Part shown: piece by piece, positions 3,896-29,224 of the stretch
How positions within the stretch are numbered: the first letter of the stretch is position 1
How the letters are laid out: every line of letters starts with the position of its first letter
Source: a virus
IMG/VR virus record: IMGVR_UViG_3300010392_000412
Coordinates: 1 to 35,361 of that record
Strand: one strand, 5' to 3'
DNA length: 35,361 bases
The notes under the pieces: generated by a model
Databases searched by the model: none
What the model saw: the letters and a program-made list of their open reading frames with translations, nothing else
Told to the model about the DNA's origin: nothing
Made by a program: the position numbers and the translations under genes

Positions 3896-5002
3896 TTAAA
3901 TACCAAAGGCCATTAAGGCAGAAAGTGGGTAATACATTATATGACCACCAGTAGAACAGTAACCGTTGATCCTAAATTCGAAATTAACTAATTGCGGTTG
4001 CAAGAAGTTGAATGGAGTAGCCATCCAGAATTTAAGTTTATGTGGGTCACGTCTAAGAGCCATCATAGCATCTTGTTGAAGATTAGCATTAGATATTGTT
4101 GCACCTGTAACGTCTGTACGGGTAGCAGCAGTACCGAATGGAGAAGTATTATTATCAGCAGCTTTTTGAGCGTTTGCATAAGAAAGCTCATTAACTACAA
4201 TAATATCCGACTCTGACTTCAAGTAAGGACTGTTTTTAATAACACGGCTCAACACTGTTTCTTGAGTAAATGTTGAGATTACAGTAGTAGCAATCAAGTT
4301 GTACTGTAAACGTGGAATTAATAGCGTATCAGCTACTTCTACACCTAAAGATCTGTTATTGATCTTAGCGAAGACATAATTGATTTGCTGGCTAATGCGT
4401 TGAGCAGCAGAAGCTAGATCATCAGCAGTAGCACCAGTTTCACTTAATGCTTCTTCCCAAGTAGCTGGAGTAGTACCGTCTTTCAACGTAACTACTGGAA
4501 ACTCATCAGAAACATTGTTTACCAATACACCGACTTGACCGTTATTAAACAAGCCATAAAAGTCATCTTCTGAAATATTCTTGTCACCGAAGTAAGCAAG
4601 TTTATTCATACGGATTTCTGTACCGTAACGAGCAGCTTCTAATTCACGGGTTTCCAAAGGAAGGTTAGCGAAACGAGCAGAATTAACTTCTTGAATCGTG
4701 TAAGCAGCCCCTTGGCCATATTCATAAATACCACGGTACTTACGGATCTTACCAGTTGTAGCTCTTGGAACATCTTTTGAGTAAGATGTAATTAACTGAG
4801 CTTCACCAGCTCTGTCATATACGTCATACGCAATTTGTTGTACGCCAGAAGCAGCAGAATTAACTGGAATTACTTTATCATAAGTAAGTTCAGGATATTC
4901 GATCTTATAGATCTCAGCTTCTTGATACTGTAACTCTGTTTGTACAAATTGAGATAGATTAGCAATCTCACTATCTGTTACATATTTACCATTTAAAATC
5001 AT
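3896..5002 (-). CDS. Major capsid protein, DUF2184 family
   Basis: 368 aa. Residues in the first half such as YDVYDRAGEAQLITSYSKDV and YGQGAAYTIQE, followed by ...LETRELEAARYGTEIRMNKLAYFGD, are the hallmark of DUF2184 major capsid proteins, which have the HK97 fold. The C-terminal half contains FAKINNRSLGVEVADTLLIP and a final HIMYYPLSALMAFGI. Length is normal. No processed N-terminal extension is evident. The start ATG at 5002 has a good AGGAGTT site 6 nt upstream. It sits after two cement-like genes and the protease/scaffold, the usual order for this phage type, and is followed by a terminator. Confidence 0.85.
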   Translation of the reverse strand: MILNGKYVTDSEIANLSQFVQTELQYQEAEIYKIEYPELTYDKVIPVNSAASGVQQIAYDVYDRAGEAQLITSYSKDVPRATTGKIRKYRGIYEYGQGAAYTIQEVNSARFANLPLETRELEAARYGTEIRMNKLAYFGDKNISEDDFYGLFNNGQVGVLVNNVSDEFPVVTLKDGTTPATWEEALSETGATADDLASAAQRISQQINYVFAKINNRSLGVEVADTLLIPRLQYNLIATTVISTFTQETVLSRVIKNSPYLKSESDIIVVNELSYANAQKAADNNTSPFGTAATRTDVTGATISNANLQQDAMMALRRDPHKLKFWMATPFNFLQPQLVNFEFRINGYCSTGGHIMYYPLSALMAFGI

Positions 5003-8323: not shown

Positions 8324-9721
8324 CTACTTCCAAGCTCCGCTAGTTTTCTCTTCTATAGTGGCTTCCTTGTCCGTATCGGGCTGGTGTTCCGTTTTATCTA
8401 GGACAGGAAAAATCTTCTCTTCTGATAATATACGCTTTGCAGTATTGATGTCAATCATTCCCTGTTCTAAAGCTATTACTATTCTATCCATTTGCTCATT
8501 TTTTAGAGTACTTGTCTCAGTTTCATCAACAAACTTAGGAACATCCCAAGACCATTTCAGATCTTTGTTGATTGCTTCAAACTCTTCTCCAAAAAGATTA
8601 CGTAGGAAAAATTTATCTACCGATTCTAAGGATTTAGTGATCTTTTCTTCACGATAACGCTCAACAGCAGCAATAAAGTTCTTCTCATCATTATCAGCTT
8701 TACCACTGGCATTCATACCTTTAGGTTGCTCACCAAGTAATCTAGTTACTGGGATACCCGTGATACCACTGATACGTTTAACAAACCACTCAGCAGCAGC
8801 GACATAATATCTTAAATCAGTTTCAAAATGCTGGTAGTCATCTTCTGAGTCAATAGCAATGGCTTTTGAGAAAGATTTGTAATAATTAAGGGCTTCCATC
8901 CTAGCAGCAAGGTTTTTCTTACCTTGAGGATCACTTACTGATTTCTTCAAACCAGCGTATTTCAATACATCAAAAGTGGCCTTGGTTGATAAATCAGATA
9001 AAACGCCCTCAACTGTAGTCAAATAGACAATAAGCTGGTAAACGTCTAATAGTTCTGATTTTCCCCACCACTGGTTGCGCTGGTATATGCGTATAGGGAC
9101 ATACTTGCCGTCTAAGCGTACCATCCTAGAAAGATGGATTGGTTCACCACCGTAAGCTAAAGTGACGTATGACGGCCTTAAAAAGTCGGTTGCCAATGGA
9201 TTATAAAGATCAGCTACTACTTTGTAGACTGTCCACCTATCCAAATGCCTGAATAATGAAATACTATCTTTTTTAATCGTGTTTAAGTTTATTGGTTTTT
9301 TTAACTCTTCTGGAGATTCCGTGGCCTTAAAAATAGGAATAATTACCGACCCACCATACAAACGGTCATCAATGAGAGCCTTACGTAAAACGTCTTTTAT
9401 CTCAAATTGCTTTTCAGCTTCTTCAATTTTTTGGACTACTGCTGGATCTGGATGCTCCCACTTGCGCCAAAAACGCAATGCCTCATCAATCATAGCATCA
9501 ACTACCATAGAAGCGATGTCGCTCCCTCCGAAGTACATAGCCTCAAGTTCTGGGTAACTAGGTTGAACCCCAAGCTGGAAATTGGTCGCTTTAGCCCCAG
9601 CCCCAGGGGTAAGCCCTACTGGTTGATTAACGCCTTGGCTGGTTTGAGAGCCGTAATACCCACTACTACAGTATTGAGCATCTTGAGTAAGTTTTTTTCT
9701 TTTGAATGGGTTTAGGTTCAT
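8324..9721 (-). CDS. Portal protein, DUF1073 family
   Basis: 465 aa. After a short basic N terminus and a flexible region, residues 50-190 (YPELEAMYFGGSDIASMVVD, EALRFWRKWE, LIDDRLYGGSVIIPIF) and the later ISGIPVTRLLGEQPKGMNASG segment define the DUF1073 portal family. The portal is a dodecameric ring at one vertex, through which terminase pumps DNA. Length is normal, without the C-terminal Acb1 phosphodiesterase extension seen in some relatives. The start ATG overlaps the stop of the upstream endonuclease-Mom fusion (ATGA), so expression may be coupled to that inserted gene. Confidence 0.82.
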   Translation of the reverse strand: MNLNPFKRKKLTQDAQYCSSGYYGSQTSQGVNQPVGLTPGAGAKATNFQLGVQPSYPELEAMYFGGSDIASMVVDAMIDEALRFWRKWEHPDPAVVQKIEEAEKQFEIKDVLRKALIDDRLYGGSVIIPIFKATESPEELKKPINLNTIKKDSISLFRHLDRWTVYKVVADLYNPLATDFLRPSYVTLAYGGEPIHLSRMVRLDGKYVPIRIYQRNQWWGKSELLDVYQLIVYLTTVEGVLSDLSTKATFDVLKYAGLKKSVSDPQGKKNLAARMEALNYYKSFSKAIAIDSEDDYQHFETDLRYYVAAAEWFVKRISGITGIPVTRLLGEQPKGMNASGKADNDEKNFIAAVERYREEKITKSLESVDKFFLRNLFGEEFEAINKDLKWSWDVPKFVDETETSTLKNEQMDRIVIALEQGMIDINTAKRILSEEKIFPVLDKTEHQPDTDKEATIEEKTSGAWK

Positions 9722-11046
9722 AGGTCAAACACAAATTTTAGTTTACTACAATGTGATGTTACTGGTATTTGCTTGAAATTACAAGCCTTATAAAGAGAAC
9801 CAGAGTGGAACTCTTTCTCAGACAAACTAAGAACGTACTTCCTGTCTTCAAGCATTTTAAGAGTTCTACTCAAGAACCAAGAGCTTATATTCTTTACTTG
9901 ATAGTAAGGGTGGATTACGAACCTTCTAAGCTCCCTCCACTCGCTTCTAAGCTCTTTAGGTAGAGTAGCCTTTCTAGTACCTAAAATAATGTCTTTACCT
10001 ATGTTAGTACAGCAAAAATCACCGTAAGCAGCACACCCAATCAACTCATCATTAAAGAACAAACCAAAATACTCAGAGCTGCTATGGTTTTGAGAGCCTA
10101 AATAGTGGTATTTGCTGATAAGGTTTCTACCTGTTTTATTTTCTATTCTCTTCACTGAGAGCTGGTTAAAGTCTAATTTCTCTATTGGAGGGAAAGGGTT
10201 GGCGGTATAGACCTCAGAGACTCCAGTATCTTTAAAAGGTGAATCACCATAGTACCTATAATCCTTATATTCTCTTTTAACCATTGATTCTAAATCCAAG
10301 GCTTCTTGACCTGACATCCACTCAGAATGCATTACCTTATAATCAATACCTTCTCTTAAATATCTTTTATGAACCCCTTGATTGGTAACGCCTATCTTAT
10401 AGAGATCACCTACTTTTATGATGTAAAACTGAGCTGGTTTTATTGTTGAGAAGTTACCAGCGCAGCTAGGGCATCCGTTTTTATATGTTATGTGATCATT
10501 AGTTCTTTGCTCAAATACTCCGTGTTTAGGGCATTTTATTTTTAATTTAGAAGGAGACCTCGAAGCCATACCTAAATACTCATAGGAACGCCCCCACACT
10601 GAAATAGCTTTACTTTTGTAATACTCAAAGGACTTAATTTTAGACCCTGCCATCCTATTATCACCACATTTAGGACACCCGTGTTTTTTATTTACGTGCT
10701 CCGAAGCAGATTGTTCAAATACACTGTGATCAGGGCATTCTATTTTTAAAAACGTTTTGCTATGGCTGCCTTTAATTAACCCTAAATATCTATATTTTCC
10801 ACCGTGTACTGACTTGGACTTGTCTACCCACTCCTCAAAAGATATAGTTCCCCAACCGCATTTAGAGCATCCATACCCTTGATTGATATGCCCATATATA
10901 CTTTGTTCAAATACACCGTGCTCAGGGCATTCTATTTTTAAAAACCTTTTACGCCCTTTATTGAATGCCCCTAAATATTTATACCTGTTATTATGTTTAG
11001 CATTCCCACGTTCAATGACCTCCTCAAATGTTAAAGCTTTTGGCAT
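9718..11046 (-). CDS. Zinc-ribbon/GIY-YIG homing-endonuclease-like protein fused to a Mom-like GNAT domain
   Basis: 442 aa. Residues 1-195 hold three DUF723-like units (CPEHGVFEQ, CPDHSVFEQ, CPKHGVFEQ, each ending CxxC). Residues about 205-285 hold a GIY-YIG domain almost identical at its start (FYIIKVGDLYKIGVTN) to the gene at 5594. Residues about 290-442 form a GNAT-type domain with the Mom-family layout: HYLGS near 315, FGLFFNDELIGCAAYG, WRELRRFVIHPYY, then KNISSWFLSRTLKML and SLSEKEFHSGSLYKACNF. Mom proteins carry out adenine methylcarbamoylation in phage Mu. Whether this domain modifies DNA is unknown. The gene lies between terminase and portal, preceded by an intrinsic terminator and overlapping the portal start by ATGA. 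Confidence 0.7.
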   Translation of the reverse strand: MPKALTFEEVIERGNAKHNNRYKYLGAFNKGRKRFLKIECPEHGVFEQSIYGHINQGYGCSKCGWGTISFEEWVDKSKSVHGGKYRYLGLIKGSHSKTFLKIECPDHSVFEQSASEHVNKKHGCPKCGDNRMAGSKIKSFEYYKSKAISVWGRSYEYLGMASRSPSKLKIKCPKHGVFEQRTNDHITYKNGCPSCAGNFSTIKPAQFYIIKVGDLYKIGVTNQGVHKRYLREGIDYKVMHSEWMSGQEALDLESMVKREYKDYRYYGDSPFKDTGVSEVYTANPFPPIEKLDFNQLSVKRIENKTGRNLISKYHYLGSQNHSSSEYFGLFFNDELIGCAAYGDFCCTNIGKDIILGTRKATLPKELRSEWRELRRFVIHPYYQVKNISSWFLSRTLKMLEDRKYVLSLSEKEFHSGSLYKACNFKQIPVTSHCSKLKFVFDL

Positions 11047-19726: not shown

Positions 19727-20376
19727 GTCAAAGACAGGGGCAGTATGGTAGATTAACCATTATCAAAGAGGTAGCTCCAAAAATATACTCAAGTGGTAAA
19801 AAACTTAGAGTATTGGCTAAGTGTGATTGCGGTAATGAAAAAGAATATTTTTTTAGTAATTTAAAAAAAGGTAATACTTCATCTTGTGGCTGCTATAATA
19901 TAGAAAGGTCTACCACCCACGGATACAGGGATCACCCTCTTTATAATGTATGGAAGCACATAAAATACAGGTGTATTGACCTCAAAAACGGATCGTACGG
20001 GTACTACGGCGGTAGGGGCATTAAAATCTGTGAAGAGTGGTTAGATCCTAAAATATTCATTGATTGGTGTTTAGCTAATGGGTGGAAAAAAGGTCTTGAA
20101 ATTGATCGTATAAACAATAACGGTAATTATGAGCCTGGTAATTGTAGGTTTGTGGCAGGCTCTCTTCAATCTAGGAATAGGCGTGGGTATGGTACTAGCC
20201 TTTATCGTGGAGTGTGTTGGCACAAATATAAGAAAAAATGGGCTGCAAATGCTAAATTAAGGGGTAAAACATTGTATTTAGGGTGTTTTATTGAAGAACT
20301 AGATGCCCTAGCAGCAGTAAATGAATGGCATAGGGTTAATATGCCTAATAATCCAGAATTACTACAGAGGCGTTAA
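19723..20376 (+). CDS. HNH-like homing endonuclease with AP2 domain, copy 1
   Basis: 217 aa. Residues 1-65 hold a zinc-ribbon-like module (CDCGNEKEY, then SSCGC). The nuclease core follows (HPLYNVWKHIKYRC, YGGRGIKICEEW, then GLEIDRINNN, Y.PGNCRFV), the phage HNH-like layout. The C terminus is an AP2 DNA-binding domain (YRGVCWHKYKKKW..., LGCFIEELDALAAVNEWH). Paralogues lie at 29998 and 34330. It is inserted between a small gene and the helicase, overlapping the former by ATGA and ending 1 nt before the helicase ATG, so it behaves as a free-standing intergenic homing endonuclease. Confidence 0.78.
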   Translation: MSQRQGQYGRLTIIKEVAPKIYSSGKKLRVLAKCDCGNEKEYFFSNLKKGNTSSCGCYNIERSTTHGYRDHPLYNVWKHIKYRCIDLKNGSYGYYGGRGIKICEEWLDPKIFIDWCLANGWKKGLEIDRINNNGNYEPGNCRFVAGSLQSRNRRGYGTSLYRGVCWHKYKKKWAANAKLRGKTLYLGCFIEELDALAAVNEWHRVNMPNNPELLQRR

Positions 20377-20377
20377 A

Positions 20378-22075
20378 ATGAAATTTAAGTTATATCCGCA
20401 CCAACAAGATGCAGTTGATAATTATCACAAATCTACTGCAAAAAAGAGACTTATCGTGGCAGTTACAGCATTTGGCAAGTCTATCGTAATCGCTCACATT
20501 ACTGACCCTAATGAAAAGACACTCGTATTAGTACCTAATAAAGAGTTGGTTGAGCAAAACGCTAGCAAATTCTCGTACCCGACAAATAAATGGTACTCAG
20601 GATCTAAAGGCCATTATTCAAATACGGTTATTTCTACGTTTGCTAGTTTAAAAAGTAGGTTGAAAATAAATAAGGATATTAAATTTGACAGAGTGATTAT
20701 AGATGAAAGTAACCAAGTATCCACTACTAGTATAGTTGGTACTCTTCTTAGAACTCACGAAGCTTTTAGGGGTACAAAATCATTTACTGGGCTTACTGCT
20801 ACGCCTTATAGGCTGGATGATAACCAGTTTATAGGGCTAGAGCACGTCATATACAGTTGCAGTAGGCCAGCACTAGTTCTTCAAGGCTATTTAGCACGTA
20901 GAAAATACGAAAACGTCGTAGGAGTATTAGATACAGAAGGTGTAAGTATTGTTAGAGGTGATTATAACGTAAAAGAGTTAGTGGATAAGGTCAATGACCC
21001 GTCATTACTTATAGCTGCGTCTCATAAGGATACACCTAAATCAATGTTCTTTTGCATAGATAGGCAACACGCTGAGAATGTATGTAAAGTTCTACCAAGG
21101 GCTGCCGTAGTGTCTTCTGATACTTCTAGATCTGAAAGGGACTCGATAGTGAGAGCATTCAAAGCTGGAGTAATAACCCAACTAGTAAACATAACTTGCT
21201 TCACGGCTGGTTTTGACTACCCAGATCTTAGGAACATCATAGTATTAAGACCCAGTAAATCAAGAAGTTTGGTAGAACAAATATACGGGAGGGCTGATCG
21301 CATCGATGATAAACTAGACCAGATGTTAGCAGAGCACCATAATTTTGAATATGCTGGTAAAGATAAAATACTATTGGTAGCCAAGTATCCAAATGACGTG
21401 GATGATATTAGGAGTCAAATATCATTCCCTAATGTTGATGTATCTGATAAGGAGCTGCCAGGGTATGATGTGGTGATACCAGAGGTAGAATCAAATAAAA
21501 CATACTGCAATATTTTTGATTATACTGATAACTTTGCTACTTTTGTTACTGAGTATGATCCTAATGAAAGAAAGAAATCACCAGCTAAAGAATGCCCTAG
21601 CTGTGGTACTGTTACAGACCATAGGCTACACAATTGCCAGCATTGCAGGGCGCAGCTAAAAGACTCATTTGTTAGAGAGTCCCCAACTAAGACTTGTAAC
21701 CATTGTGGACACGTTCAGCACCCTAGCGCAACCTATTGTGTAAGCTGTAAGAAGCTAATTAAGAAGATAACTCAGTCCAATAGCTATATAGAGCTTAGGA
21801 GCTTGAGGATAATTTCAGCAACAAAAGATAGATGGAGGATCTTGTTAAATGAAACGGCCAAACTAACCTTGGTTATAGGCCACCAGGACATAGCAGCAGG
21901 CTGTTTAAAACAGTTGTTTGGGGTATTGCCACCTAAAGTATTAAAAGTAATCCAGAACTCACCAAGGCAGCCTAAAATAGAGTTCAATAAAAACAGGTTC
22001 AAGCTATATGTGAGCCGTGGGTTTGATGGATCACTCCAGCTAGAGGATATAATAAAAGATGAGGCTGAGGTATGA
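20378..22075 (+). CDS. SF2 DNA helicase (UvsW/RecG-like DEAD-type)
   Basis: 565 aa from the ATG at 20378 (AGAGG upstream). Helicase motifs in order: Q-like YPHQQDAV (6-13), motif I VTAFGKS (29-35, an unusual P-loop), motif Ia LVLVPNKELVEQN, motif II VIIDES (about 106-111), motif III GLTATPYR (about 138), motifs V-VI with TAGFDYPDLRNII and QIYGRADRID (about 300-310). From about 405 to 450 there are two zinc-ribbon pairs (CPSC...CQHC and CNHC...CVSC), then a C-terminal helical part. It is likely the phage replication or recombination helicase. Confidence 0.8.
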   Translation: MKFKLYPHQQDAVDNYHKSTAKKRLIVAVTAFGKSIVIAHITDPNEKTLVLVPNKELVEQNASKFSYPTNKWYSGSKGHYSNTVISTFASLKSRLKINKDIKFDRVIIDESNQVSTTSIVGTLLRTHEAFRGTKSFTGLTATPYRLDDNQFIGLEHVIYSCSRPALVLQGYLARRKYENVVGVLDTEGVSIVRGDYNVKELVDKVNDPSLLIAASHKDTPKSMFFCIDRQHAENVCKVLPRAAVVSSDTSRSERDSIVRAFKAGVITQLVNITCFTAGFDYPDLRNIIVLRPSKSRSLVEQIYGRADRIDDKLDQMLAEHHNFEYAGKDKILLVAKYPNDVDDIRSQISFPNVDVSDKELPGYDVVIPEVESNKTYCNIFDYTDNFATFVTEYDPNERKKSPAKECPSCGTVTDHRLHNCQHCRAQLKDSFVRESPTKTCNHCGHVQHPSATYCVSCKKLIKKITQSNSYIELRSLRIISATKDRWRILLNETAKLTLVIGHQDIAAGCLKQLFGVLPPKVLKVIQNSPRQPKIEFNKNRFKLYVSRGFDGSLQLEDIIKDEAEV

Positions 22076-22227: not shown

Positions 22228-22256
22228 TTGACACTATATAACATAGGTGTAATAAT
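22228..22256 (+). promoter_or_regulatory. Strong promoter with AACATAGGTG operator, for the Acb2/Tad1-like gene
   Basis: TTGACA (22228-22233, perfect), a 17-nt spacer and AATAAT (22251-22256). The spacer holds AACATAGGTG (22240-22249). Its spacer block AACATAGGTGTAATA also occurs in the 15.6-kb leftward promoter. Confidence 0.7.
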
Positions 22257-22304: not shown

Positions 22305-22778
22305 ATGAAAAAATCAGAATTAGAATCAGGTATGGTACTAGAAACCGATAAGGGTAGAAGAGCAATAGTAGTAGGGAATACTATTTTGTATAGTGATGGT
22401 AAAAGTTTTGACACGTTGAAAAATATAGATGAAAATTTAAACGCTACCTCTGAGCACGCCCCTAGCATTAATAAGGTTTTTGAGTATAAAAATAAAAAGG
22501 TGCTCTCCCTACGCACGTCGGAGTGGGATAGACATCTTAATCTGTTATGGGATAGATACCAAAATCCAGTATCAGACCCTATATACCGTTCTAATGATAG
22601 TTGGCTATCTCAAAGCGTTGCACTAGAAGATCAGTGTATTAAGCTTTTACAGCACCTAGAAACTCTATCAAGCCAAGGAGTCGATACAAGGTGCATAAAC
22701 ATAGCCAAGACTCAAATCCAACAGGGCTTTATGTGGGTTAATAAATCCCTATTCAACGGAGGCCGTAATTATGAATAA
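22305..22778 (+). CDS. Putative Acb2/Tad1-type cyclic-nucleotide sponge with N-terminal SH3-like domain
   Basis: 157 aa. Residues 1-60 (SELESGMVLETDKGRRAIVV, then a Y-rich strand) look like the small SH3-like phage domain. Residues about 100-157 have the Acb2/Tad1 pattern: a helix CIKLLQHLETLSSQ, then GVDTRCINIAKTQIQQGFMW, and VNKSLFNGG. The Acb2 and Tad1 families bind and sequester second messengers of CBASS and Thoeris immunity. The residues Asp127, Arg129, Lys135, Thr136, Gly141 and Phe142 fall in the conserved stretch of that domain. Which nucleotide it binds cannot be told. It has its own strong promoter and AAAAAGGAAAT site. Confidence 0.65.
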   Translation: MKKSELESGMVLETDKGRRAIVVGNTILYSDGKSFDTLKNIDENLNATSEHAPSINKVFEYKNKKVLSLRTSEWDRHLNLLWDRYQNPVSDPIYRSNDSWLSQSVALEDQCIKLLQHLETLSSQGVDTRCINIAKTQIQQGFMWVNKSLFNGGRNYE

Positions 22779-23446: not shown

Positions 23447-25777
23447 ATGAATGGTTTATCTGTAAAGCTTCAATCTGGGGCTGTAAGGTGCTTGCGCCTT
23501 GGAAAAAACTACCACCCTATTTCCAAAAACTGGGGTAAGAATCTCGTAGAGTATGATGATAGCTTTGAACCTTTATCTTTTGGGATAGGTACTAATTCTT
23601 TTGAAGATGACTTTAGTGTAATAGATGTGGATCTTACCAAAGGTGCTGACCATAGGGAGCTACTTAAAAAGTCTCCAATATACCAACAATTAGTAAACTT
23701 TAGAGATAAAACCCTAGTAGAAAACTCTAAATCTCTGAAAGGTAACATCCATATATACGTCCAGAACGATTTAAGGATGTTTAAGAAAAGTACAAAAATC
23801 TCACCTGAGCTTACTGTAGAGATTTATCCATCAACTCAGCACAAAAAAGAACATACCGATGGTTTTTATATCATACCAACTTTTAGGTTTACTAAGGACG
23901 GTACTAAGGACATTAATAATATTGAAGGACTGGAATCTTGGCTAGAATCCATAGGGTGTCAAGTTGATGACCAGAAATCAGATGAAGATCAAGAGCTTAT
24001 TGAGTTGGCTGAGAGCCTAAATCCTCAATCTTTTGGTAAGCCAGAGCTGATTGAAATCAAACGTGCTTTAGACTGCATACCTAATGATGGAGATACTGAC
24101 TATAATACTTGGTTGCAAGTGGGTATGGCCGTACACGAAGCTACTAATGGATCTAGTGAAGGGTACGGCCTATGGAGTAAGTGGTCTGATAAATCACCAA
24201 AGTCTGGAGTAGACAAAGATAATGAGTATACCTGGTCAAGCTTTGATGATGCTAGGAGAAGCAAGGTAACGGCTGGTACTCTATTTATGCTAGCTAGGGA
24301 TAATGGATATGTTCCTCCAATAGATATAGAAAACATCCAGAAGCCAGGAAAAGATCTGGATTTTCCAGAAATACCAAAAGAGTTTCACCTTGTTGAAATG
24401 ATGGATGTTATGGCAGGCGGTATGCCTCTTTCAATGAGTTTTTATCTATTCGCTTCTGTAATATCTGGGGTTATAGGTAGGTGCTATAGGACAGGGGTAC
24501 GGGGCAGGCCAAGTAATGGATCAGTGGGTATTATATCTCTAAACGGAGCACCAACAGGTGCAGGGAAGGATACTTTAATGGATCTATTAAGAGATCCAAT
24601 AGAACAAGACATACTCCCAAACCTTAAAAAGACCTATGCTAGATCTAAGCACGCTCATAGTTATCAACTTAAAAAATATCATAAAGAAGTTCAAGAGATA
24701 GCAGAAAACACCAAGGCTTCTCAAAAAAGTATTGATGAAGGTTTAGCTAGACTAACTGAACCCTTAGCTCCAGTAAACCCAGATTTCATTGAGGGTACTG
24801 TCACCCCTAATGGCTTACGGGTTGCTATGGGTCAAAATAGTGGCCATACCTTAATACTGAGTCCAGAGTTTAAAAGTATGTATGATCACTCTACTACTAA
24901 TATTATGGATTGGTCGGCTGTCTGGTGCGGATACTGGTCAGGAAAAAACGATAAAAAGAGAACTGCCGTTTCAGACTCAGGGTATTCAAATAGAGTGTAT
25001 TGCTCTCTAAGTGCATTTACTATGGATCAGCCTAGTACATTTCACCAGTTAATGGCTAATGATACTGTAGCCAAAGACGGGGTACTTTGTAGGTCTTTTG
25101 TTGAGATATATGATGAGGACTCGGCTAAGGATAAACAATTTAGAACTAATGATGAGTTTTCTAAACACTCTGTAGAGTATAAAGATTTCATTACTTTTTG
25201 TACTTATTACATAGATGAAGTAACTAGTACTTTCAAAGACCCGTCTTTAAAGCCCTATACCTATACTATAGGAGATAAGTCTATGGACTACCTGGAAGGG
25301 TTCAAAGATTGGGTAAAATATGAATTAGATAAAGACATATCCTCTCTACCTTTTGCAAGGTATCAGCTTACGAGAGCTTTCGAGAATACTTGTAGGCTAT
25401 ATGTAGTGCTATCATCGTATAAGAACTGTAATAGGATATCAGGTGGTTTAAAAGATGTTACAGTAGATGACCCAGAATTAGCAAAATTTTGTATTGCTGT
25501 AGTCAAATATAATCTTAATCGCTGCCATAATTTATTTTCTAGGGCTTCTGATATAGCCGAGGGTACGGTATCAGAACTTAGAGAAAGTGTATTGAGGTTT
25601 ATCGAGCGTAGGGGTGTTGGTGATCTCTTCTCTATTAGAGACGTATCTAACAACCATAAGGTTAGAGAGTCCCTTACAGACGTTAAAAAGAAAACCAAAG
25701 CAGTGAGATATTTAATTGACCAATTCGTAGAAGAAAAAAAATTAACAAAAAACGGTAACAAGTATTGTAAGTTATAA
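23447..25777 (+). CDS. Primase-helicase (PriCT-2 domain, DUF3987-like P-loop ATPase)
   Basis: 776 aa. An N-terminal region (1-190) has beta-rich PrimPol-like features (FGIGTNSFEDDFSVIDVDL, then HIYVQNDLR, VEIYPST). A PriCT-2 domain spans about 195-285 (IEIKRALDCIPNDGDTDYNT, WLQVGMAVHEATNG, ...AGTLFMLARDNGY). A P-loop ATPase follows with ISLNGAPTGAGKDTLMD at about 364-380. The last 60 residues repeat the winged-helix-like module of the protein at 16649. It probably primes and unwinds DNA at the phage fork, and lies beside the helicase, SSB and polymerase genes. Shine-Dalgarno AAAAGGAA precedes its ATG. Confidence 0.72.
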   Translation: MNGLSVKLQSGAVRCLRLGKNYHPISKNWGKNLVEYDDSFEPLSFGIGTNSFEDDFSVIDVDLTKGADHRELLKKSPIYQQLVNFRDKTLVENSKSLKGNIHIYVQNDLRMFKKSTKISPELTVEIYPSTQHKKEHTDGFYIIPTFRFTKDGTKDINNIEGLESWLESIGCQVDDQKSDEDQELIELAESLNPQSFGKPELIEIKRALDCIPNDGDTDYNTWLQVGMAVHEATNGSSEGYGLWSKWSDKSPKSGVDKDNEYTWSSFDDARRSKVTAGTLFMLARDNGYVPPIDIENIQKPGKDLDFPEIPKEFHLVEMMDVMAGGMPLSMSFYLFASVISGVIGRCYRTGVRGRPSNGSVGIISLNGAPTGAGKDTLMDLLRDPIEQDILPNLKKTYARSKHAHSYQLKKYHKEVQEIAENTKASQKSIDEGLARLTEPLAPVNPDFIEGTVTPNGLRVAMGQNSGHTLILSPEFKSMYDHSTTNIMDWSAVWCGYWSGKNDKKRTAVSDSGYSNRVYCSLSAFTMDQPSTFHQLMANDTVAKDGVLCRSFVEIYDEDSAKDKQFRTNDEFSKHSVEYKDFITFCTYYIDEVTSTFKDPSLKPYTYTIGDKSMDYLEGFKDWVKYELDKDISSLPFARYQLTRAFENTCRLYVVLSSYKNCNRISGGLKDVTVDDPELAKFCIAVVKYNLNRCHNLFSRASDIAEGTVSELRESVLRFIERRGVGDLFSIRDVSNNHKVRESLTDVKKKTKAVRYLIDQFVEEKKLTKNGNKYCKL

Positions 25778-27730: not shown

Positions 27731-27930
27731 TGGCACTTAAAGAATATTTCATATCATACTCTGATACTGCCGAGGAGTTGGGTTTAAAATCTCCTTACCA
27801 GCTAAGAGCTTTGATAAAATCTGGTGAGTTACCTAAACCAGTAAGAGCTATTGGAAGTGATGCCCGTCTTTATTTTGTTAGAGACGACATTAAAGAATAT
27901 AAACTAAAAAGGAAAAACAATGAACAGTAG
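27730..27930 (+). CDS. Excisionase/MerR-like HTH protein
   Basis: 66 aa. Residues 8-60 (ISYSDTAEELGLKSPYQLRA, then LIKSGELPKP, YFVRDDIKEYKLKRK) have the AlpA/Xis/MerR winged-HTH layout: an HTH followed by a strand, then a helical basic end. Such small proteins act as DNA-binding excisionases or architectural regulators. No integrase is in view, so a regulatory role is likelier here. It overlaps neighbours by TAATG and by the next gene's ATG inside its last codons. Confidence 0.65.
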   Translation: MALKEYFISYSDTAEELGLKSPYQLRALIKSGELPKPVRAIGSDARLYFVRDDIKEYKLKRKNNEQ

Positions 27931-29224
27931 AAAAGCAATAGAATTATTTACCAAATTTTTAAAAGATAACAACATTTCTGACGAGTATTCAGCAAACGTA
28001 CTGAATCACGGTAGTTGTGATGTTCACCAAAGAATAAAAGACGGAGAGTATACCAAGATATTAGCTGCTTCTTTTGCTTGGGATAAGACACCGCAAGGGT
28101 CTGTATATTGGGCTAGTAAGAGTGCAAAATGGGCAGCCCTGTTAATAGAAGAAAGAGCTAAAGAAGGAAAAAATAGAATTTTTGATATCGAATATACTCT
28201 ACCAGGGGTTGTTGAAAGTGTTGATATAGATGTCCACATTCACACAGGGTCTACTGAAAGATATAAAGGAGTGGATCTATTTATGCTATTTCTGCTAGAG
28301 GAGGGGGCTTTAGATAAATTTATAGCAAATAGGCAAAAGCAGCATAATACTGAAAAAGCTTTTTCATTTGGAGACTCTAAGGCTACGGATTATATAATGG
28401 ATTCCTTACACTGGGGTGGTACTTTAGAAGGTGTTGGGTACTGGTCAAATCTTGATGAAAAGTGGTTAAAAATTGTAGAAGACAAAGAGTTTGCACTTAG
28501 AACTAAACAAAAAGATGCAGTATTAGCTAACATAAAAAAATTATATAAATTGGATGCGTTATCTAAATTCATAAAATCATTTAAAAAAGCTGGTAGGTTA
28601 GTCACTTTAAAAGAGTTTTTCTTTATGCACGCCGAAGACAGTTTTTATACGTTCATTTCTTCTTCATTTTGTTGGAGTCATACTGACGAGAAGCACGAGT
28701 ATTGGTGTGAGATAGCAAATGAGATATCTCTTAAAACATTGGATGATAAAAACGAACCCCATATTAAAGACTTTTTATACTTCTTGTACGAAAATAAAGC
28801 CCTACGTAAATATGTTAAGAACACTGTTAAATATGGTAAAACTTTAAAAAGTGTATTTAATACATACCGACCTTTATGGATAGGTGGTGGCTTTTGTTGG
28901 GATTCTTCTCCTCAAGGTTTAGATTACTGGGTTAAATTAGATACTAAACAGTCAAGAGAAAATCTAAGTTTAGTTAAAAAACCAGAAGACAGTCAAAACG
29001 TGAAAGACATTAAAGAGTTTTTATATTTCTTATATAAAAATGATGCCCTATATTGCTTTTTTAAGAATGTAAAAAAGTACGGTTTTGGGATGGAGTTTGT
29101 TTTTGAAAAAGAACCACATCGTTGGATTTTAGGATCTGGGTTCGCTTGGCGTGAAACAAAAGAAGGCGTTGAGTATTGGGACAGCATAGACAACAAATGG
29201 AGGGAAAAAGTACGAAACATATAA
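27920..29224 (+). CDS. Five-repeat protein of unknown function
   Basis: 434 aa. A motif of the form (S/G)(F/L)xW, then 8 residues, then YW, occurs five times: SFAW/YW at 51-64, SLHW/YW at 162-175, SFCW/YW at 249-262, GFCW/YW at 324-337 and GFAW/YW at 407-420. Between them lie helices rich in FLYFLYENKAL..YVKN..K.G. Spacings are 111, 87, 75 and 83 residues, so repeats 2-5 are regular domains. The 'W..T.EG..YW' element is found singly in small phage proteins of unknown function. No signal or catalytic motif. It lies between an HTH gene and the SSB gene. Confidence 0.7.
   Translation: MNSRKAIELFTKFLKDNNISDEYSANVLNHGSCDVHQRIKDGEYTKILAASFAWDKTPQGSVYWASKSAKWAALLIEERAKEGKNRIFDIEYTLPGVVESVDIDVHIHTGSTERYKGVDLFMLFLLEEGALDKFIANRQKQHNTEKAFSFGDSKATDYIMDSLHWGGTLEGVGYWSNLDEKWLKIVEDKEFALRTKQKDAVLANIKKLYKLDALSKFIKSFKKAGRLVTLKEFFFMHAEDSFYTFISSSFCWSHTDEKHEYWCEIANEISLKTLDDKNEPHIKDFLYFLYENKALRKYVKNTVKYGKTLKSVFNTYRPLWIGGGFCWDSSPQGLDYWVKLDTKQSRENLSLVKKPEDSQNVKDIKEFLYFLYKNDALYCFFKNVKKYGFGMEFVFEKEPHRWILGSGFAWRETKEGVEYWDSIDNKWREKVRNI

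Follow-up and report, generated by a model that had tools for sequence, protein, structure and literature searches.

A phage protein joining an Acb2/Tad1-type helical hairpin to a widespread phage beta domain

Introduction

Sponge proteins built on a helical hairpin are a leading route by which phages silence nucleotide-based immunity. Acb2 (T4 Vs.4; Pseudomonas phage p26/gp24; PDB 7uq2, 8h2j) is a stand-alone protein of about 74–110 aa, in which the hairpin is accompanied by an N-terminal GY segment and a lysine; as a hexamer it takes up cyclic di- and trinucleotides. In T4 Acb2, the substitution Y8A disrupts dinucleotide binding and abolishes function, so that Panoptes is not activated (PMC12657218, PMC12657230), T68M lowers the affinity (PMC12657230), and F82C diminishes binding (PMC12657218). 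Tad1 (SBSphiJ7 Tad1, cbTad1; PDB 7uav, 8smd, 8kbe) is a gcADPR-binding inhibitor of Thoeris. Its layout is different, with an N-terminal beta domain followed by a C-terminal hairpin (PMC12043709).

Here we analyse a 157-aa protein encoded in IMG/VR record IMGVR_UViG_3300010392_000412, the whole of which, 35,361 nucleotides, is referred to as the window. A sequence-only reading had described the protein as an SH3-like domain fused to an Acb2/Tad1 domain, and had proposed that it was an anti-CBASS or anti-Thoeris sponge expressed from its own strong promoter.

Results

Locus and promoter

The gene content of the window is that of a tailed-phage genome fragment. The minus strand encodes a terminase, a head protease and a major head protein, the plus strand a helicase, a primase and a DNA polymerase. 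The terminase shares only ~32% identity with those of the closest phages on record, from Idiomarinaceae and Pseudoalteromonas. The 157-aa ORF is one of a series of small accessory genes, with overlaps of a few bases, between the helicase and primase genes (Table 1). The two small genes said to follow it, one of them encoding a membrane protein, were found; neither product matched any family in the libraries searched, Pfam and PHROGs among them. It is plausible that they form an accessory cassette with the 157-aa gene. An identical 157-aa protein occurs in contig IMGVR_UViG_3300006467_000163 (50.1 kb), which shares 99.99% DNA identity with the window over 10.5 kb.

Table 1. Positions of the 157-aa gene, its domains and its neighbours in the window.
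Feature	Position	Strand	Remarks
Helicase gene	20321-22075	+	Upstream of 157-aa ORF
Sigma-70-like promoter, TTGACA-17-AATAAT, TG extended -10	22228..22256	+	11/12 matches; predicted
Ribosome-binding site AAGGAA	22294..22299	+	5 bases before ATG of 157-aa ORF
Two-domain protein, 157 aa	22305-22778	+	ORF, ATG start
N-terminal beta domain, residues 1-85	22305..22559	+	Profile from relatives, window excluded; model
Linker, residues 86-94, QNPVSDPIY	22560..22586	+	Low pLDDT in full-length model
Acb2/Tad1 helical hairpin, residues 95-150	22587..22754	+	PF24729 and AlphaFold; Pfam-matched part 108-150 = 22626-22754
Soluble helical protein, 52 aa	22771..22929	+	Overlaps end of 157-aa ORF by 8 bases
Membrane protein, 70 aa	22926..23138	+	Hydrophobic stretches, Kyte-Doolittle 2.85 over 19 residues
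Function-unassigned protein, 95 aa	23135..23422	+	4-base overlap with 70-aa gene; upstream of primase gene at 23447
Primase gene	23447-25777	+	Downstream of 157-aa ORF

The promoter-like site falls in the 77-base gap before the ORF and is the best in the 20–26 kb stretch. Across the window, the 11/12 pattern was matched four times at three places, against 2.45 matches expected by chance, so it is position, and not rarity, that supports the site. The promoter claimed earlier is present and well placed, and may well be used, but there is nothing statistically special about it.

The C-terminal hairpin

The 157-aa protein belongs to the Acb2/Tad1 hairpin superfamily. Profile PF24729 (Acb2_Tad1_hairpin) matched residues 108–150 over profile positions 17–57 of 58, at 33.0 bits (E 6.8e-8; curated cut-off 27 bits) and at 34.6 bits in a genome-wide search. 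The PHROGs Acb2 family, phrog_717, also matched the hairpin (E 5.2e-6). The family call, made by eye, was thus correct at the domain level, with the profile match lying inside the residues proposed for it, 100–157. The nearest sequences to the hairpin were the Acb2 genes of two viral contigs, L002 and L003 (45–48% over 40–49 residues). AlphaFold2, given the window protein together with 17 hairpins, predicted long antiparallel helices at residues 95–123 and 128–150 with pLDDT of 85–97, which is the expected two-helix layout. In a Foldseek search with the model of the 157-aa protein, the most plausible PDB match was T4 Acb2 (7uq2_A, probability 0.69, rmsd 3.3), though it was not significant by E-value, and no PDB match of the full-length model passed E 0.001.

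We considered whether the upstream part of the frame was spurious and the protein in reality a canonical Acb2. This was rejected, as there is no internal MDNQH-type start and the upstream part is itself a conserved domain. Other long hairpin frames do carry such a start inside the frame, unlike the 157-aa ORF.

Superfamily membership did not extend to membership of either Acb2 or Tad1. With Acb2 the protein has in common the PF24729 hairpin, the helix-2 core and the equivalents of T68 and F82, but an extra 85-residue domain stands in front, and the GY segment and lysine are absent or displaced. With Tad1 it shares the order of beta domain then hairpin, and a valine where Acb2 has the lysine. 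SBSphiJ7 Tad1 (142 aa) gave a similarly partial match to PF24729, 34 bits versus 33, and in both cases the match begins late in the profile, at position 17 for the 157-aa protein and at 22–25 for Tad1. However, hhalign with three Tad1 sequences aligned residues 108–150 only, the N-terminal domains showing no sequence relation, and the 50 PDB fold matches listed for the N-domain included no chain of Tad1. Canonical Acb2 proteins match columns ~190–287 of the 289 in phrog_717, at 66–78 bits. The ~190 N-terminal columns of that family, which suggest that some of its members are fused, did not match the window N-domain.

Binding-site residues

Alignment with relatives identified T136 and F150 as the counterparts of T4 Acb2 T68 and F82, both kept. 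The helix-2 signature is likewise retained: R129, A134, T136, Q139, F142 and M143 do not vary across 17 relatives. R129 aligns with R67 of Pseudomonas Acb2 in 8h2j, presumably a residue of the trinucleotide site. Other positions have changed. A GY motif (T4 Y8) at the right spacing was not found in the 157-aa protein; the sole candidate for Y8 is Y94, in PIYR of the linker, where the spacing is four residues shorter. Y94 could possibly be the displaced counterpart of the Acb2 tyrosine, and in one relative, L108, PYR replaces GYR. V105 takes the place of the Acb2 lysine (T4 K23, Pseudomonas K26), which 15 of 17 aligned relatives carry, and the invariant arginine and proline after helix 2 are K147 and G152. 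As for Tad1, the cbTad1 residues F82 and N92, which we take to be gcADPR contacts, fall at L121 and I131 by their hhalign positions.

Four divergent stand-alone hairpins, L022, L042, L108 and L125, also lack GY or the lysine, so that losing these features is in itself no bar to function. Taken together, the kept and lost residues point either to a sponge whose ligand has changed or is of trinucleotide type, or to a scaffold that has ceased to bind. The earlier step from the domain to an anti-CBASS or anti-Thoeris sponge was unsupported, given the missing or displaced GY and the changes to V105, K147 and G152, even with the T68 and F82 equivalents in place.

The N-terminal beta domain

Residues 1–85 form a distinct, widespread phage domain. 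Direct searches of Pfam, PHROGs, NCBIfam, PADLOC, PDB, phages and viral contigs gave no sequence match for it, and a profile search of 391 genomes gave none either. The first relatives were obtained with a probe composed partly of the window sequence and partly of a phage consensus, which matched Ruminococcus, Pseudoalteromonas and Tenacibaculum phage proteins. Because this mixed probe was circular, the family was rebuilt from real proteins only, with the window left out, as a profile of 38 viral loci (IMG/VR) gathered from an alignment of real phage domains. Among 2,002 sequences searched, the profile matched the window protein at 41.9 bits (E 1.3e-11), while the best of 2,000 shuffles reached 10.9 bits. 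The domain alone scored 44.1 bits, and hhalign of the window protein with the family gave 98% probability over residues 1–89. The conserved pattern, KsDLkdGMvVe...G...l......DIvkVy......LiWeR, ends at W82–R84 of the window protein. A joint alignment of both domains was set aside, as the beta domains fell onto the hairpin.

Modelled with 29 relatives, the domain was mostly beta, with pLDDT 89.6 and pTM 0.81; in the first full-length model the N-domain had pLDDT <60, and Foldseek on that part was uninformative. Foldseek of the improved model against PDB found nothing at E<=0.001, the best fold match, CwlO (8wt3; E 0.22, probability 0.90, TM 0.36), not being significant. In the viral library BFVD, three uncharacterised phage proteins matched at E 1.5e-4 to 5.7e-4. 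The SH3-like N-terminal domain of ~60 residues proposed from the sequence is a distinct phage domain, modelled as all-beta, but of ~85 residues; for so small a beta domain the SH3-like label is plausible.

Relatives occur in Pseudoalteromonas phages HM1 and J2-1, in Tenacibaculum phage Larrie, in Ruminococcus phages and in the 38 IMG/VR loci (L199–L236). As read from their sequences, these proteins have the domain ahead of coiled coils and other small beta modules or placed between them, whereas in the 157-aa protein its partner is the hairpin; no hairpin was seen beside it in the 38 loci read. These varied partners make it look like a general phage module. The family has no Pfam or PHROG name and, as a common module without an entry in either, merits a family of its own. 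Two other leads on the N-domain were discarded. Matches in prokaryote genomes at E 5e-4 to 0.08 proved fortuitous, falling on broken frames and on IscA-like and LytTR-like proteins, and a guess at a relative from a DNA motif led to an unrelated protein.

Rarity of the fusion

The pairing of beta domain and hairpin was seen in one phage only, in its two near-identical contigs. The ~99 hairpin loci of viral contigs included no fused hairpin, only stand-alone ones, and none was present among the above-cut-off matches in 369 + 391 gammaproteobacterial genomes, where the open frames were stand-alone and of 71–133 aa. Such searches are biased towards sequences close to canonical Acb2. Longer hairpin frames in GC-rich contigs had the usual MDNQH-type start inside. 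A search for the fusion with the pattern FMWxNK...F returned the same phage, plus chance matches. The fusion had been called unusual. This holds for the particular pairing, but a beta domain ahead of a hairpin is not unusual in itself, since Tad1 has that plan (PMC12043709). The architecture therefore follows the plan of Tad1 with new components.

Very divergent prophage hairpins were also encountered. L179, L180 and L182 lack both GY and the lysine but retain MWA at the end of helix 2, which indicates that the superfamily is wider than Acb2 and Tad1.

Discussion

The reading we favour, with a probability of about one half, is that the 157-aa protein may be a two-domain, oligomeric sponge of the hairpin superfamily, perhaps not for cyclic dinucleotides. 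In its favour are the PF24729 match, the confident hairpin model, the kept helix-2 signature, the Tad1 layout and the setting among small accessory genes. Under this reading, the C-terminal hairpins would assemble as a dimer or hexamer that holds a nucleotide signal from a bacterial defence system, so that the effector is not switched on. The beta domain would probably shape or cap the ligand pocket, or stabilise the assembly. With the tyrosine and lysine changed and the helix-2 core kept, the ligand would more likely be a cyclic trinucleotide or other nucleotide than 3'3'-cGAMP. Against a sponge stand the lack of GY at the right spacing, the residues V105, K147 and G152, an N-domain that by sequence is not that of Tad1, and the lack, in the searches made, of an orthologue in another phage.

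The same losses lend themselves to a second explanation, which we consider rather unlikely: that binding has been lost and the hairpin serves as an oligomerisation scaffold only, presenting multiple copies of a beta domain that targets a protein, of phage or host, or nucleic acid, perhaps in connection with replication. Tyrosine, lysine, arginine and proline are all missing from conserved hairpin positions, the beta domain has very different partners, with no hairpin in the 38 loci read, and the gene lies between helicase and primase. However, the helix-2 core, T136 and F150 included, is fully kept, beyond the need of a pure scaffold, and the divergent stand-alone hairpins L022, L108 and L125 likewise lack GY or the lysine.

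A bolder version of the sponge reading, which is doubtful, would place the protein in a third lineage of hairpin sponges, distinct from Acb2 and from Tad1, whose new pocket arose by recruitment of a general phage beta domain in front of the hairpin. If so, the ligand would lie outside the range of the known sponges, and the defence signal or specificity would be new to the superfamily.

The PF24729 domain and Tad1-like layout would also suit a classical sponge, whether an anti-CBASS protein of Acb2 type or an anti-Thoeris protein of Tad1 type, with the usual ligands (3'3'-cGAMP and cUA, or gcADPR) and a passive beta domain. Yet GY and the lysine of the dinucleotide site are missing, and the positions of cbTad1 F82 and N92 are occupied by L121 and I131. 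We therefore regard such an identity as improbable. Least probable is a decaying or chimeric gene, two recombined phage modules with no selected joint function: the fusion is restricted to one phage and the linker at the joint is of low confidence, but the frame is open for 157 codons with a good start, ribosome-binding site and promoter-like site, the conserved cores of both domains are kept, and an identical copy exists in a second contig, albeit of a near-identical phage.

Returning to the favoured sponge reading, if the 157-aa protein does bind a signal, the hairpin would be a portable core whose specificity is set by the N-terminal domain, be it that of Tad1, the one described here, or none, as in Acb2. 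A hairpin without GY and lysine, joined to an added domain, would then serve as a handle for finding sponges that are now left as hypothetical in Acb2 and Tad1 searches.

Additional observations

Several features were noted in passing. In contig L002 (IMGVR_UViG_2852567696_000001), a gene with an RyR domain (PF02026, 3.4e-12) at 4129-4881 immediately precedes a canonical acb2; in L003, a similar-looking small gene without the RyR domain follows acb2. Elsewhere in the window, at 27920-29224 (+), a 434-aa protein matched at least six different small function-unassigned PHROG families along its length, in a pattern that looks repeat-built. At 9718-11046 (-), residues 4–313 of a 442-aa protein matched the HNH endonuclease family phrog_681 (8e-48) and residues 289–429 the Mom-like DNA-modification family phrog_1384 (4e-18); this protein is possibly an endonuclease–Mom fusion or a homing insertion.
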